DNA of 64,000 nucleotides, taken from Streptomyces sp. A2-16 (GTDB lineage Bacteria > Actinomycetota > Actinomycetes > Streptomycetales > Streptomycetaceae). The position numbers and the translations under genes are program-made. Below are positions 37,147-42,177 of the stretch, piece by piece (the first letter of the stretch is position 1; each line of letters starts with the position of its first letter). The stretch covers positions 4,526,001 to 4,590,000 of the forward strand of contig NZ_CP063808.1 in NCBI RefSeq assembly GCF_018128905.1, in the 5' to 3' direction. The notes beneath the pieces were generated by a model, which saw only the letters and a program-made list of their open reading frames with translations, had not been told where the DNA came from and made no database searches.

Positions 37147-37178
37147 CAGCCAGTTCGGCCCTTTAGCTTGTCATTTAA

Positions 37179-37214
37179 GGTCCGGCGTCGAACGCGGCTC
37201 GAACTTGGTCGGTG
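37179..37214 (+). repeat. left-end repeat of the IS701-like element (second copy at 38027-38062)
   Basis: Thirty-six bases beginning GGTCCGGCGTCGAACGCGGC recur at 38027-38062 with two mismatches. The outer copy is preceded by the terminal CTTGTCATTTAA; the inner copy is not. Confidence 0.85.
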
Positions 37215-37291
37215 GACCACCAGACAGCCGATCTACCTAGGAATGCCCTCGTTCGGCGAGATTGCCGCACGAGCCTGATCCCGTGGCTTCG

Positions 37292-37831
37292 TCAATCGGA
37301 CGGCGTGGCCGGGGACCGCATGCCGAGCCACTGCTCGGCGTCCCAGGCATGGAACCGCTCTACCTCGGTGAACCCCAGCTTTGCCACGAGGCGCATCGAG
37401 GCGACGTTTGCGGTCTGGGTGGCGAGCACCACCGGCTCGCCGGGAAAGGCGCTGTCGAACCAGTCGAGTGCCGCCGCGCACGCCTCGGCGGCGTATCCAA
37501 ATCCCCACGCCCGCGGCAGGAACAGGTAGCCGAGATCGACCTTCCCCGCCGCAGCTGGACGATGGTGCTCCGGTTCCCTCACGAGCTGGATCTGTCCGAT
37601 CATCGCCCCGTCGAGATCGACGACGAAAGTGCCGGGCCGCCGCCCAGGCACCTCGGGCACCTCGCGCTCAAGCTCGTCCCGCGACCGGGGGCCGCCGAGG
37701 TAGGTGTGAACCTCCGCCGAAGCATGCAACTCGATGAACGCCGCACGGTCCCGGGCCTCGGACTCACGGAGCACGAGCCTCTCGGTTCTAATCGGGGCAG
37801 GTGGCCAGGCGACGGGTCCGAGCTCAGTCAT
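37292..37831 (-). CDS. GNAT-family N-acetyltransferase (RimJ/RimL-like)
   Basis: The 179-residue protein begins MTELGPVAWPPAPIRTERLV and shows the RimJ/RimL-type order: RTERLVLRESEARDRAAF, DLGYLFLPRAWGFGYAAEAC (acetyl-CoA loop) and NVASMRLVAKLGFTEVERF. It acetylates an amino group of a protein or small molecule; the substrate is unknown. ATG 37831 matches family starts although the ribosome site is weak; ATG 37885 is an in-frame alternative. It lies between the outer and inner left ends of the IS701-like element and may be a passenger. Confidence 0.83.
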   Translation of the reverse strand: MTELGPVAWPPAPIRTERLVLRESEARDRAAFIELHASAEVHTYLGGPRSRDELEREVPEVPGRRPGTFVVDLDGAMIGQIQLVREPEHHRPAAAGKVDLGYLFLPRAWGFGYAAEACAAALDWFDSAFPGEPVVLATQTANVASMRLVAKLGFTEVERFHAWDAEQWLGMRSPATPSD

Positions 37832-37936
37832 GCCGGCCAGCCAATCAGCAGGCTCGGCAGCGATCAAGACTCGCAGACCGATCAAGCCACCGGCCCAGGC
37901 CCCACCTCGCCAACGGGCCGGGCTTTACGTCAACCA

Positions 37937-37964
37937 CGGCTCCGCCAGCGCGCTGGCGGAGCCG
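37937..37964. repeat. perfect 28-bp palindrome
   Basis: CGGCTCCGCCAGCG is followed directly by its complement (37951-37964), giving a hairpin without a spacer. It lies upstream of the GNAT gene. It could act as a bidirectional terminator or protect passenger expression from outside transcription. Confidence 0.6.
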
Positions 37965-38150
37965 CTTCCATGAGAGGAGCTTCCGTGACCAGCACTCTTG
38001 ACATGCTTGGAGAGCTCGGAGCGTGCGGTCCGGTGTCGAACGCGGCTCGAACTTGTTCGGTGTTTTCGCAGTTCAGCGGACGTGAGGGCGGCCTCCGTCT
38101 GATCCTTTGCTCCGTCACAGAGGCAGAGGAACAGTACGAAGGCCGTGGTC

Positions 38151-39635
38151 ATGAGTCTGGTGTGCCCAGGTGTCCTGCGGGACGCGTTCGCGGAAGTGTC
38201 ACGCTTCCGGACGGAGTTGTACGAGTGTCTGATTGCCCGGGGCGACGCGCTGTTCGAGTTATGCGACGCCTTGTTGTGCACGGACGGGCCGGTGCGGACG
38301 CTCGTCGATCTGGCGCTCGCCCCGGAACACCGCCGCGGGCACGGGGCCCTCTACGGTGGCCTCAACCAGGGGCGGATCGACGTCGCCCGGCTGCGTCGGA
38401 TCCTGGTGTCGACGCCGCTGCCGAGGGCTGCGGACGGTCGGATCGTGCTGGCCGCAGACGTCTCGCCGTGGTTGCGGCCGGACGCCAACACCTGCCCTGA
38501 CCGGGCTTTTTGTCATACGTTCGGCCGGGGCGAGGGCAAACACCAGATGGTGCCCGGCTGGCCGTACTCGATCGTGGCCGCGCTGGAGACGGGCCGCACG
38601 TCGTGGACGGCGGTGCTGGACGCGGTCCGCCTCGAGCCTGGCGCTGACGTCGCCGCGGTGACCACCGTCCAGATCCGCGAGGTCGTCGAGCAGCTCGTTG
38701 AGGCCGGCCAGTGGAAGCCGGGCGACCCGCACGTCCTGGTCGTGCTGGACGCCGGGTACGACGCACCTCGCATCGCCCACCTGCTGGCTGACCTGCCCGT
38801 CGAAGTCCTCGGCCGGCTCCGCTCAGACCGGGTGATGCGCCGTCCGGCCCCCTCCCGCAACGAGTTCGCCCTGGCCAACCCCCTGGGCGGCCGACCACCC
38901 AAGCACGGTGGCGAGTTCGTCTTCGGCGATCCCTCCACCTGGGGCGTCGAGCAGGCCGTGACGGTCACCGACACCCGCCTCTACGGCAAGGCGACCGCGC
39001 GGGCATGGGACCGACTGCACCCAAGGCTCACCCGGCGGGCGGCCTGGATCGAGCACGACGGACCACTGCCTCTCATCGAAGGCACCGTCATCCGCCTCGC
39101 CGTGGAGAAACTGCCGTCCGGCGGGGTGAACAAGCCGGTCTGGCTGTGGTGGTCCGGCACCGGAGCCAGCGCGGCGGACGTCGACCGCTGCTGGCAGTCC
39201 TTCCTCCGGCGTTTCGACCTGGAGCACACGTTCCGCCTGCTCAAGCAGACACTCGGCTGGACCAAGCCCAGGCTTCGCAGTTCGGATGCGGCCGACCGGT
39301 GGACCTGGTTGGTGATCGCCGCCTACGCCCAGCTCCGGCTCGCCCGGCCACTGGCCACCGACCTCCGCAGGCCCTGGGAGAAACCGACCGAGCCGAACAG
39401 ACTCACCCCCGCCCGCGTCCGACGGGGGTTCAGGAACCTGCGCACGAAGACCGGCTCTCCGGCCAGTGCACCGAAACCTTCAACACCCGGACCAGGAAGG
39501 CCACGTGGCTCGAAGAACCGCGGTCCGGCCACCCGTCACGACGTGGGCCGCGTCCTTGCGACCGGCGAGGCATACAGCCGCCCCGCCCATCACAAAGTCG
39601 GCACGAAACCACGGAGAGTCAACCCCGATCGTTAA
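38151..39635 (+). CDS. IS701-like transposase
   Basis: The 494-residue protein begins MSLVCPGVLRDAFAEVSRFR and carries FELCDALLCTDGPVRTLVDL and HRRGHGALYGGLNQGRIDVA. Acidic residues lie in IVLAADVSPWLRPDA, LVVLDAGYD and the late DLEHTFRLLKQTLGWTKP (E and the YREK-like box). This is a large actinobacterial transposase family assigned to IS701. ATG 38151 has GAAGG eight bases upstream. The frame is intact. About 325 bp before it (37832-38150) hold only the palindrome and the inner end repeat. Confidence 0.85.
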   Translation: MSLVCPGVLRDAFAEVSRFRTELYECLIARGDALFELCDALLCTDGPVRTLVDLALAPEHRRGHGALYGGLNQGRIDVARLRRILVSTPLPRAADGRIVLAADVSPWLRPDANTCPDRAFCHTFGRGEGKHQMVPGWPYSIVAALETGRTSWTAVLDAVRLEPGADVAAVTTVQIREVVEQLVEAGQWKPGDPHVLVVLDAGYDAPRIAHLLADLPVEVLGRLRSDRVMRRPAPSRNEFALANPLGGRPPKHGGEFVFGDPSTWGVEQAVTVTDTRLYGKATARAWDRLHPRLTRRAAWIEHDGPLPLIEGTVIRLAVEKLPSGGVNKPVWLWWSGTGASAADVDRCWQSFLRRFDLEHTFRLLKQTLGWTKPRLRSSDAADRWTWLVIAAYAQLRLARPLATDLRRPWEKPTEPNRLTPARVRRGFRNLRTKTGSPASAPKPSTPGPGRPRGSKNRGPATRHDVGRVLATGEAYSRPAHHKVGTKPRRVNPDR

Positions 39636-39648
39636 ATGACAAGGTTAG

Positions 39649-39975
39649 AAGACGCCTGCTCTGTTGGGCTGTTTGGTGGTGCAGTCGAGGGTGCTGATGG
39701 GTCCGTCCCTCGCGATGATTCGCCGACGGCAGACAGGTTGATGCCAGAACAGACTGGAATAGAGCGCCGACTTCAAGCAAACCTAGAACGGTTGGTGGAA
39801 AGCGGTGGAGGCAGTCGCTGGCACTCCGTGACGTGACCTCGATCCTGTGGCGCGGGCGGCAACATAGCACGGGATCGCCGGTTACCGAAACCGGCGATTG
39901 TCCAGATCATTTAATCCAGTCCGGGGACGCGCCGTGCGTGCGTCCTGAAGTGCCATGTGAGGAGTCAAGGAAAAC
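39649..39975. other. 327-bp intergenic region with a hairpin
   Basis: I see no gene. ATCGCCGGTT (39874-39883) and its complement (39889-39898) form a hairpin about 75 bp before the next start, possibly a terminator or leader structure. Confidence 0.4.
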
Positions 39976-40599
39976 GTGTCGGTCCCTGCAATAGACGAAG
40001 CGGCCATGCTGTCCCCGGTACAGGTTCGGTCCTTGCTCGAACGAGTACGGGAAGACACCGGCGGCAATCAGGCCGTGTACCCGTTCCTGCTCTCCTTGGG
40101 GGCGGCGGCGCTTCAGCCCGGTGAGGCGATCGGCCTTCGTGTGGACGACGTGACCCTCCCGGAAGAGGGGTTGGGTGAGTTGCTGGTCCGTGGAGAGAGG
40201 GGCAGGAAGGTTCCTGTTACTCCCAAGCTTGCCGGTGTGCTGAGGCACTGGATCAGCAGCGCCGACCTGGGACCAGGCGATCGGCTGTTTCCCGGTGAGC
40301 AGGGCGGACCGCTGTCGTCGTCGGTCTATCGGCGGGTGTGGAGGCAGGCGCGCGAGGCTGTGCTGCGGCCGGATGAGCTGGAGGCCGGCCTGGGGGAGAA
40401 GGTCTCCGGTCTTCGCGAGGTCTGCCTGGTGGATTGGCTCAGGAGGGGGCTCTCCGCTTGGGGAGTCGCCGAGTGGGCTGGTGTCAGTGCGAGTTGGCTT
40501 GCTTTGCGGTACCCGCAGTGCTTCCGGGTGGACGACGTCGAGATCGACTGGGATCGCCTGGAAGAGATGCTGGATCTTCCGGACTCTCCCGAGCAGTAA
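39976..40599 (+). CDS. degenerate tyrosine-recombinase catalytic-domain protein
   Basis: This 207-residue protein consists of only the catalytic half of a tyrosine recombinase. ALQPGEAIGLRVDDV aligns with the Arg-I box, GERGRKVPVTPKLAGVLRHW with the beta-hairpin, GLREVCLVDWLRRGLSAWGV with the HxxR box and EWAGVSASWLALRYPQCF with the H...Y box. The box-II and box-III His positions are changed (LREV, WAGVS), so strand cleavage is doubtful. GTG 39976 follows GGAGTCAAGGAAAAC. It is followed by an excisionase-like and an integrase gene. An accessory or regulatory role is possible. Confidence 0.65.
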   Translation: MSVPAIDEAAMLSPVQVRSLLERVREDTGGNQAVYPFLLSLGAAALQPGEAIGLRVDDVTLPEEGLGELLVRGERGRKVPVTPKLAGVLRHWISSADLGPGDRLFPGEQGGPLSSSVYRRVWRQAREAVLRPDELEAGLGEKVSGLREVCLVDWLRRGLSAWGVAEWAGVSASWLALRYPQCFRVDDVEIDWDRLEEMLDLPDSPEQ

Positions 40600-40815
40600 G
40601 TTCCGTCCCGCGCTACGAGCGCGGGCCCACCCGCCGCACGCATCCCGAACATCGGCGGTCCACGCCTCGCTGCGGCCATCCCCTGACGCAGCGCCTCGGC
40701 GATGTGGTCCTACTCCCCTGACGGGGCGGTTGACCTTCGTCCTGGACCACCTGGCAGCCCGGCTGAATCTATTCGCCGGCTTGGCCTTCCACCCCCTGTT
40801 CCCGAGGACTCGCCC

Positions 40816-41022
40816 TTGCCTGCCCGTTTGCTGTCCATCCCCGCTGTCGCCGCCGCCCTGGACGTCGACCGCCGCACCGTCTACCGCTTCATCGCCGCCG
40901 GAGACCTCCCCGTCGTCGATCTGCGCACCGGGACGGAACGTTCCCGCGTCCGTGTCCCCGCCTCCGGGCTGGAGGAGTTTATCGCCAGCAGGTTGGTCGC
41001 TTCTCCGCGTGCCCGCCGGTGA
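40816..41022 (+). CDS. excisionase-type helix-turn-helix protein
   Basis: The 68-residue protein (LPARLLSIPAVAAALDVDRR, TVYRFIAAGDLPVVDL, RVRVPASGLEEFIASR) is a MerR/Xis-like HTH_17 domain as found in excisionases and small recombination directionality factors. TTG 40816 is used because GAGGA lies seven bases upstream and no better start exists. It sits 66 bp before the integrase gene, the usual xis-int order of actinobacterial integrative elements. Confidence 0.75.
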   Translation: MPARLLSIPAVAAALDVDRRTVYRFIAAGDLPVVDLRTGTERSRVRVPASGLEEFIASRLVASPRARR

Positions 41023-41088
41023 TCTCTCGCCGTCCGTCCGGTCCCCACCGTTCCCGAACGAAGGAGTAGTACCGCGTACCTGCGCAAA

Positions 41089-42177
41089 TTGAAGTCCGGC
41101 AAGTGGCAGGCGACCGTACGCAACCGGGCCGGAGACCGGTTCAGCGAGTCCTTTCCCCTCAAGGCCCAGGCGCGTGCCTGGGGTATCGAGCTGGAGACCC
41201 AGTTCGCCCGCGGAGGCATGCGCGACCCGCGGGCCGGTGAAACCGTGTTCCGGGAGTGGCACGACCTGTGGTGGAACGCCCGCATCGTCGAACCCCACAC
41301 CCTGCGGGGCGACGCGTCCAGCATCAAGAACCACGTCATGCCCAACTGGGCGGACTGGGAGATGCGGGCCATCACCCGGATGGACGTCCAGAGCTGGATC
41401 CGCTCTCTGGTCGAGAAGGGAGTCGGCGCCTCCGCCATCAAGCGGGCCTACAACCTGATGTCGTCGATCATGCGTGCGGCGGTCGACGACGATGTGATCG
41501 CGGTGAGCCCGTGCCGCAGCATCGACCTGCCGACCGTCGCGGTCAAACCGCCGCAGTGGTTCACGCCCGACCAGGCGCAGAGCATCCTCGATGAACTCGC
41601 CCCCGCCTGGCGGACGATGTGCCTGCTCGGCTTCTACACCGGACTCCGCTGGGGAGAGCTCTCCGGCCTGCACCGCCAGCGTATCGACACACGGCGCTCG
41701 CGCCTGTTCGTGGTGGAGGTCAATACCAAAAGCGGCATCAAGGAGTACCCCAAGAGCTCCAAGAGCCGCCGCGAAGTCCCGCTCCCGCCCCACGTCCTGG
41801 AGGCCCTCGAACGCCACATCCACCGACTCGAGCGTGACGCGGTGGTGTTCACCACCATCACCAAGGGCCGCTCCGGGCGCCTGCTCGCCGACAGCAACTG
41901 GCGTACGCAGACCTGGTGGCCAGCCGTCGAGGCCGCCTATCACTTCGGCGACGACGGTGAGCTGCAACTTGTCCCGCATTACCCGCCGCACTCCATGCGC
42001 CACACCTGCGCCTCGTGGCTGGTCCAGAGGGGAGTCTCGCTCTACGAGGTCCAGCATCTGCTCGGCCACGAGAGCTTCCAGACGACCCAGCGGTACGCCC
42101 ACCTCCAGCCGGATGCCCACAAGGCTGTCCTTGGAGCCTGGCAGCGAATGGAAACCCCGCTCGTCATTGCCGTATGA
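41089..42177 (+). CDS. tyrosine recombinase/phage-type integrase
   Basis: The integrase of about 362 residues has a complete catalytic set: Arg in YTGLRWGELSGL, Lys near KSSKSRREVPL, HxxR in PPHSMRHTCASWL, His in HLLGHESF and nucleophile Tyr in TTQRYAHL. The SAM-like core-binding domain spans about 45-140. The start is odd: AAGGAG (41061-41066) is followed by ACC at 41071 where family members begin M-A-Y-L-R-K-L. The first usable in-frame codon is TTG 41089, 22 bases from that site. The start may have been mutated. A strong terminator follows at 42183. Confidence 0.82.
   Translation: MKSGKWQATVRNRAGDRFSESFPLKAQARAWGIELETQFARGGMRDPRAGETVFREWHDLWWNARIVEPHTLRGDASSIKNHVMPNWADWEMRAITRMDVQSWIRSLVEKGVGASAIKRAYNLMSSIMRAAVDDDVIAVSPCRSIDLPTVAVKPPQWFTPDQAQSILDELAPAWRTMCLLGFYTGLRWGELSGLHRQRIDTRRSRLFVVEVNTKSGIKEYPKSSKSRREVPLPPHVLEALERHIHRLERDAVVFTTITKGRSGRLLADSNWRTQTWWPAVEAAYHFGDDGELQLVPHYPPHSMRHTCASWLVQRGVSLYEVQHLLGHESFQTTQRYAHLQPDAHKAVLGAWQRMETPLVIAV

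Follow-up and report, generated by a model that had tools for sequence, protein, structure and literature searches.

The window, by which we mean the whole stretch of 64,000 nucleotides analysed here (Streptomyces sp. A2-16, contig NZ_CP063808.1), contains at positions 37167–39643 a 2,477-bp element that is bounded by perfect 12-bp inverted tips and that encloses two genes, one for a GNAT acetyltransferase and one for a transposase. The features of the element and of its edges are as follows.

37162–37166, no strand: left copy of the target duplication, TTTAG, whose last four bases (TTAG) equal those of the right copy; the five-nucleotide frame comes from comparison with the family
37167–37178, plus strand: outer left inverted-repeat tip, CTTGTCATTTAA, of the type seen in simple relatives
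37179–37214, plus strand: outer copy of a 36-nt left subterminal sequence, directly abutting the tip
37292–37831, minus strand: GNAT acetyltransferase passenger gene, 179 aa from its ATG (Acetyltransf_3 and Acetyltransf_1 matches; homologues)
37937–37964, no strand: perfect 14-bp palindromic hairpin without a T run, between GNAT (promoter side) and the inner IS end
38027–38062, plus strand: inner copy of the same 36-nt sequence, lacking a tip, the point at which simple relatives run on from the tip
38145–39635, plus strand: transposase, 496 aa, NF041680 family (DDE_5; profile matches)
39632–39643, minus strand: right inverted-repeat tip, TTAAATGACAAG, the reverse complement of the left tip
39644–39648, no strand: right copy of the target duplication, GTTAG
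39645–39661, no strand: TTAGAAGACGCCTGCTC, attachment core (tRNA-Arg TCT anticodon arm) of an adjoining integrative element, the insertion target

The inverted ends pair at 13 of 14 nucleotides, and in a scan that combined inverted repeat, tip and flanking repeat the paired ends scored 34.0, compared to a null maximum of 26.0 (67 null loci, reversed flanks). Both ends match exactly the tip CTTGTCRTTTA, a consensus that we derived from relatives, and the stop codon of the transposase falls within the right inverted repeat. The two copies of the 36-nt direct repeat are identical at 34 of 36 positions (94%), and their alignment scores 62, where 200 shuffles gave no more than 29. An initial annotation, made from the sequence letters, had described perfect 12-bp inverted ends, a GNAT gene and a transposase inside them, and a second, tip-less left end at 38027–38062. 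All of these were recovered, the two genes through Acetyltransf_3 and DDE_5 matches located between the tips and the second end through a repeat far above shuffled sequence.

The transposase and simple relatives of the element

Comparison with profile models indicated that the transposase scores 590.7 bits on the NCBIfam model NF041680 ("putative transposase"; cut-off 440), which is above the curated score, whereas the IS701 models, whose cut-offs are 170 and 150, give 53.6 and 31.1 bits. Because the IS701 scores lie so far under their cut-offs, we regard the transposase as related to IS701 and not as a member; the label "IS701-like" given initially thus stands as a statement of distant relation, and membership was rejected on these scores together with the duplication length discussed below.

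When we searched 392 genomes of the genus (own genome included), the strongest relative matches spanned query positions ~861 to 2448, indicating that relatives begin at the inner copy. Consistent with the earlier prediction that a normal IS starts at the inner repeat, in 13 of 29 first-batch relatives query nucleotides 1 to ~46 (the outer tip and the 36-mer) are exactly contiguous with the body, without GNAT; in these simple elements one reads the tip CTTGTC[A/G]TTTA and, directly after it, GGTCCGG. Since simple relatives join the outer tip straight to the inner-copy sequence, the 848 bp at 37179–38026, which contain GNAT and the second left end, are additional. For the 62 nt that precede the inner copy, a search with 37920–38026 against 150 genomes gave two short non-self matches only (30 and 29–31 nt), and none of 294 other genomes matched a 32-nt pattern, even with 3 mismatches allowed.

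The GNAT passenger

The GNAT gene scores 76.9 bits on Acetyltransf_3 (cut-off 25.4), and its reading frame as listed reaches a TTG at 37885. Homologues with up to 90% DNA identity are present, without the IS, in many genomes of the genus, with matches that often run from the stop codon (query position 126) into the promoter region, and the own genome has two paralogues (84% and 77%). Against 17 homologues the dN/dS is 0.21–0.45, which indicates that GNAT is, or recently was, under purifying selection. Judged by these homologues, GNAT is an ordinary Streptomyces chromosomal gene, unrelated to transposition. The 2 kb on each side of the element gave no match at any of the 17 GNAT loci fetched, and no IS tip was found beside the 17 homologues. 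Near another NF041680 element, but outside it, lies an N-terminal piece of a GNAT gene, 26 aa long and 85% identical to that of the window (L104:1293–1370).

Ends and target duplications across the family

For the family survey we tried 84 loci, chosen by similarity to the window's element: 70 loci (including 40 further stretches) and 14 plasmid regions. Three of the 70 (L010, L106, L112) gave no candidate end pair and five of the 14 plasmid loci (L138, L139, L141, L144, L146) were not delimited; these were dropped, so that 67 + 9 = 76 loci were counted. Ends were located by tip and inverted repeat alone, with the flanks ignored, and 56 of the 76 loci exceeded the null maximum of 29. Identical four-nucleotide flanks occur in 28 of these 56, compared to a permuted mean of 6.0 and maximum of 16 (10,000 shuffles). 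Reframing the flanks revealed a perfect five-nucleotide duplication in 24 of the 56 (CTNAN, once TTCAG), a four-nucleotide CTAR duplication in eight that form a more distant subgroup, and a match at four of five positions in four (the window's element, L009, L015 and L136); the family consensus is CTNAG, and a target duplication is absent in the remaining 20. A three-base TNA duplication was also considered and dropped, as the last base matches too in elements such as L013, which has CTTAC at either end, and L029 (CTGAA).

This comparison changes how the window's own flanks are read. The initial annotation had placed the element at 37167–39644 between TTAG duplications, and its left end and the likeness of the last four bases hold; after comparing the 56 relatives, we replaced the four-nucleotide duplication and the right end at 39644 with a five-nucleotide frame in which the element ends at 39643 and TTTAG faces GTTAG (four of five positions). 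The shared TTAG is by itself weak evidence, because its T and A are set by target preference.

Using cut-offs that we set ourselves (>300 nt to the left or >200 nt to the right of the transposase match), 33 of the 56 elements are loaded (15 left, 17 right, one on both sides) and 23 are simple, a proportion that is not an unbiased prevalence because the 84 loci were picked by similarity to the window's element. The simple form is ~1.6 kb long, with ~130 nt before the transposase match and 10–140 nt after it. In the 15 left-loaded elements 442–1231 nt separate the left tip from the transposase match, and in the 17 right-loaded ones 290–629 nt separate the match from the right tip; the element loaded on both sides is L136, on Streptomyces anulatus plasmid NZ_CP109253.1, and L095, earlier classed as "both", is tallied as left in the final count. 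Perfect duplications flank 18 of the 33 loaded elements (7 left, 11 right). At one locus (L097, genome G296, listed on contigs C2 and C1 of one genome) two NF041680 copies lie in opposite orientation ~620 bp apart.

Cargo genes of the relatives

Passenger ORFs were hand-picked from six-frame lists, and some of the right-hand ones may not be genes. Seven of ten left passengers have a Pfam match above cut-off, to domains that have no relation to transposition.

L017, left: DUF402
L021, left: NmrA/NAD_binding_10 (NmrA-like reductase)
L027, left: APH_6_hur (APH-like kinase)
L095, left: CN_hydrolase (nitrilase)
L105, left: glutaredoxin
L124, left: UPF0167
L127, left: Pribosyltran (phosphoribosyltransferase)

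Among the other left passengers, that of L024 gave only sub-threshold HTH matches to Pfam and those of L128 and L132 gave no Pfam match. The outward-facing left ORFs of these three end inside the tip (nucleotide 8), as the window's transposase does in the right tip. One of ten right-hand ORFs has a Pfam match (DUF6086, in L028) and nine have none. Some ORFs without a Pfam match recur, namely one common to L013 and L100, one to L018, L020 and L025, and one to L029, L035 and, on the left side, L128 (likeness by eye).

These right-hand ORFs, nine in ten of them lacking a Pfam match and some common to several species, would fit the reading that the extra DNA is a normal accessory part of the IS, such as a regulatory leader or an antitoxin-like partner, and not captured host genes. 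We consider this explanation very improbable for the extra DNA as a whole, as the left passengers belong to many unrelated enzyme families, simple 1.6-kb elements with good ends do without extra ORFs, and GNAT has chromosomal homologues without the IS. It is contradicted for the enzymes and could still hold for some of the small right-hand ORFs. Plasmid annotations enter the passenger as a hypothetical protein beside a "putative transposase" (for example at L136), which may explain how such cargo gets missed.

Loaded units at unrelated sites, and the fate of the inner end

Comparison of loaded units between loci supports transposition of whole units in relatives, as far as sequence can indicate. 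Aligned from tip to tip together with their cargo, L007 and L008 of two genomes reach 94.8% identity over 2,290 columns, and their flanks are unrelated; the loaded units of L009 and L015 share 90.5% identity over their whole length and are flanked by TGAG and TTAG. More distant pairs are L013/L100 (75.8% identical, flanks TTAC and TGAA) and L029/L035 (76.1%, flanks TGAA and TGAC).

In all 14 left-cargo loci in which an inner tip was sought, the outer tip is intact, whereas the best tip-like sequence near the place of the inner tip agrees with no more than 7 of the 11 consensus bases; in most of them one can still make out by eye the subterminal part of the inner end. When 12 left-cargo elements were tested for a duplicated left end, the window's element and L021 alone lay above the shuffled maximum and the other ten did not. 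L021 scores 85 against a shuffled maximum of 28; its outer left end retains ~95 nt (48 nt in the window), its inner copy is ~84% alike (62 of 74 columns, by eye), and a tip, though mutated, survives at its inner end next to CTAGG. A duplicated right end was sought in 14 right-cargo elements, of which L008 scored 19 against a shuffled maximum of 18 and the rest fell within shuffles. The notion of a GNAT gene captured between a duplicated outer end and an old inner end fits the anatomy of the window's element, and L021, with another passenger, has a duplicated left end of this kind and a decayed inner tip; in the other ten left-cargo relatives tested no such duplication rises above shuffles.

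In a composite transposon, two IS copies act jointly through their outer ends. As in such a transposon, the gene in the window lies between two directly oriented copies of an IS end; unlike in one, the outer left copy amounts to 48 nt and the inner end has no tip. It is quite possible, if a little short of an even chance, that the unit is the decayed remnant of one: GNAT would have lain between two ISs in direct orientation, of which the left one shrank by deletion to the 48 nt of its end, while the right one lost its inner tip to decay. This history would fit the end duplication of the window's unit and that of L021 (~74 nt duplicated, with the mutated inner tip by CTAGG). It would also fit CTTGACATGCTTGG (within 37997–38026, upstream of the inner copy), in which 11 of 14 positions agree by eye with CTTGACGTTTTTGG, the tip found in L032 and L034, a likeness that is suggestive only. 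CTTGACATGCTTGG lies 18 nt further upstream than expected of the inner tip and is possibly this tip, decayed and with 18 nt inserted. Against such a history, no transposase remnant lies beside the outer left end, and none of the ten other left-cargo elements tested has a duplicated end above the shuffled maximum. A decayed composite would in any case be a special case of how our leading explanation, capture of GNAT by way of a second left end, could have begun.

The insertion site

The element looks to occupy, as read from sequence, the attachment core of an integrative element. At 39645–42177 we observe the core, a short integrase-like protein, an excisionase-like HTH protein and a tyrosine integrase, which together form one integrative-element end with the IS exactly in the core. 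The own genome keeps an intact tRNA-Arg(TCT) with TTAGAAGGCGCCTGCTC, and several relatives have the core without the IS, the sequence behind it being related to the kilobase that follows in the window. Many left flanks in the family resemble RAACAGGCNCTNAG, and right flanks such as CTCAGTGCCTGTTC of L023 look like its mirror image. This suggests that the NF041680 target may be palindromic; attachment cores in tRNA stems would fit such a target.

The initial annotation had called for the whole unit at other loci and for an empty site, and neither was found. The 2.48-kb unit was not found in the 391 other genomes of the genus searched, and an exact 18-nt junction scan of genome contigs gave no second copy, its two matches both being in unrelated phyla. 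The left flank is a mosaic (G104, then G068, at 93–94%) that matches G068 up to 37157, and the right flank matches G105, G112, G080 and G092; as no genome has both flanks joined, there is no strict, contiguous empty site. Mobility of the window unit itself is accordingly something that we infer from the family.

Empty sites were sought at other loci as well. For L136 and L142, plasmids L147 and L149 have CTAAC where the elements sit at CTAAG, and the right flanks differ, which leaves no clean empty site; for L140 the left flank alone was shared; and the joined flank of L100 matched, across its left part, its own genome only. L136:2567–2580 and L142:2817–2830 mark the same place behind a DUF6009 gene on two Streptomyces anulatus plasmids, occupied by different NF041680 elements whose cargo differs too; the flanks on their right are unlike each other.

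The lack of another copy, both in the 391 genomes and in the junction scan, speaks for a local origin. In that case a simple IS would first have inserted at the attachment core, its left end would later have received the 848 bp with GNAT through recombination, either illegitimate or with a further left end, and the unit would have stayed in place from then on. The 94% identity of the 36-nt copies would also fit, as would the own 9.8-Mb genome, which has one complete NF041680 gene only and two fragments elsewhere (116 and 46 bits). We nonetheless hold a local origin to be improbable, as relatives of the same plan occupy different sites with their own duplications and the two copies, which differ at 2 of their 36 positions, do not stem from a fresh duplication.

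A probable transporter IS with a GNAT passenger

The term transporter IS (tIS) denotes, in the available text of PMC3129680, an IS copy that includes passenger genes unrelated to transposition; the excerpt of PMC9330008 uses it too. In the window an unrelated GNAT passenger lies inside the outer tips of a single IS, which by its anatomy is a real transporter IS, built as the initial annotation guessed; such loading is common in the family. Other family members are transporter ISs as well, although the window's unit occurs at no second locus among the 391 genomes. Our leading explanation, which we consider likely, is that this transporter IS is an NF041680 element whose working left end lies beyond a captured chromosomal GNAT gene. 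The comparisons establish the anatomy, the homology, the lack of the 848 bp in simple relatives, the shared modular plan and the presence of related loaded units at unrelated sites. Beyond this, the window unit probably moved together with GNAT: the transposase would take the outer left tip and the right tip as its two ends, and the whole 2,477-bp unit would move and insert at a CTNAG-like target, the inner left end being unusable because its tip is lost.

As for its origin, we suspect that a second left end came to lie beyond GNAT, that the transposase paired this tip, past the neighbouring gene, with the far tip and skipped the inner end, and that the new unit then moved while the inner end that had been passed over decayed. 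Presumably the window's unit and L021 are young enough to show the duplicated-end step, which these two alone display; for the rest we infer it. Counting against our explanation are the single copy of the unit, the one-base flank mismatch, the missing contiguous empty site and the 20 of 56 relatives without a duplication, and 848 bp entering a resident simple IS would give much the same structure.

More tentatively, and with the balance leaning somewhat against it, NF041680 may be a gene-capture system of Streptomyces that packs single chromosomal genes to the left or right of the transposase and spreads them between chromosomes and linear plasmids. If a 12–18-nt tip suffices as an end, the transposase could combine its far tip with one that lies on the other side of a neighbouring gene. 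The compact units of such a system would be somewhat like integron cassettes, but usually with one gene per element.

The closest known parallel is IS231 of the IS4 family. According to the available text of a 2008 IS4 review (PMC2266710), its left inverted repeat and its transposase are separated by extra DNA whose passenger genes serve resistance, metabolism and unknown functions, a layout that recurs in the window; that text adds that modular passengers had not been observed outside IS231, perhaps for want of searching. The element is not an IS231 member, as its duplication is five nucleotides long and its transposase is of a different family: IS231 has an IS4 transposase with a YREK motif, a 10–12-bp duplication and CAT ends and occurs in the Bacillus cereus group, whereas NF041680 has a 5- or 4-bp duplication, CTTG ends and right-side cargo too, and occurs in Streptomyces. 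With IS701 the family shares a DDE transposase, a simple form of ~1.6 kb and a short duplication, and one NF041680 subgroup duplicates CTAG or CTAA. The tip consensus and the CTNAG of the main clade are nevertheless unlike the IS701 row in Table 1 of PMC2266710, which lists a conserved 4-bp duplication: four-nucleotide duplications are confined to 8 of 56 elements, against 24 with five nucleotides and four of five positions in the window.

Our literature search, which covered few of the subscription journals and not ISfinder, found no paper that names NF041680 and no title or abstract that presents the family as cargo-bearing or as a tIS; in the text available, PMC7371123 and PMC11092175 concern Tn3 passengers and IS counts, not NF041680 cargo. 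NF041680 is a second IS family with modular cargo, on both sides of the transposase and in the main antibiotic-producing genus, and the occurrence of simple and loaded forms side by side makes capture directly testable.

We note, finally, that the own genome contains a truncated NF041680 element (L164:5440–6187) in which ~450 bp, with an open minus-strand frame inside, separate one of the two transposase fragments from the right tip GTTAAACGACAAGG. Given this distance, the broken second copy may have had right-hand cargo.
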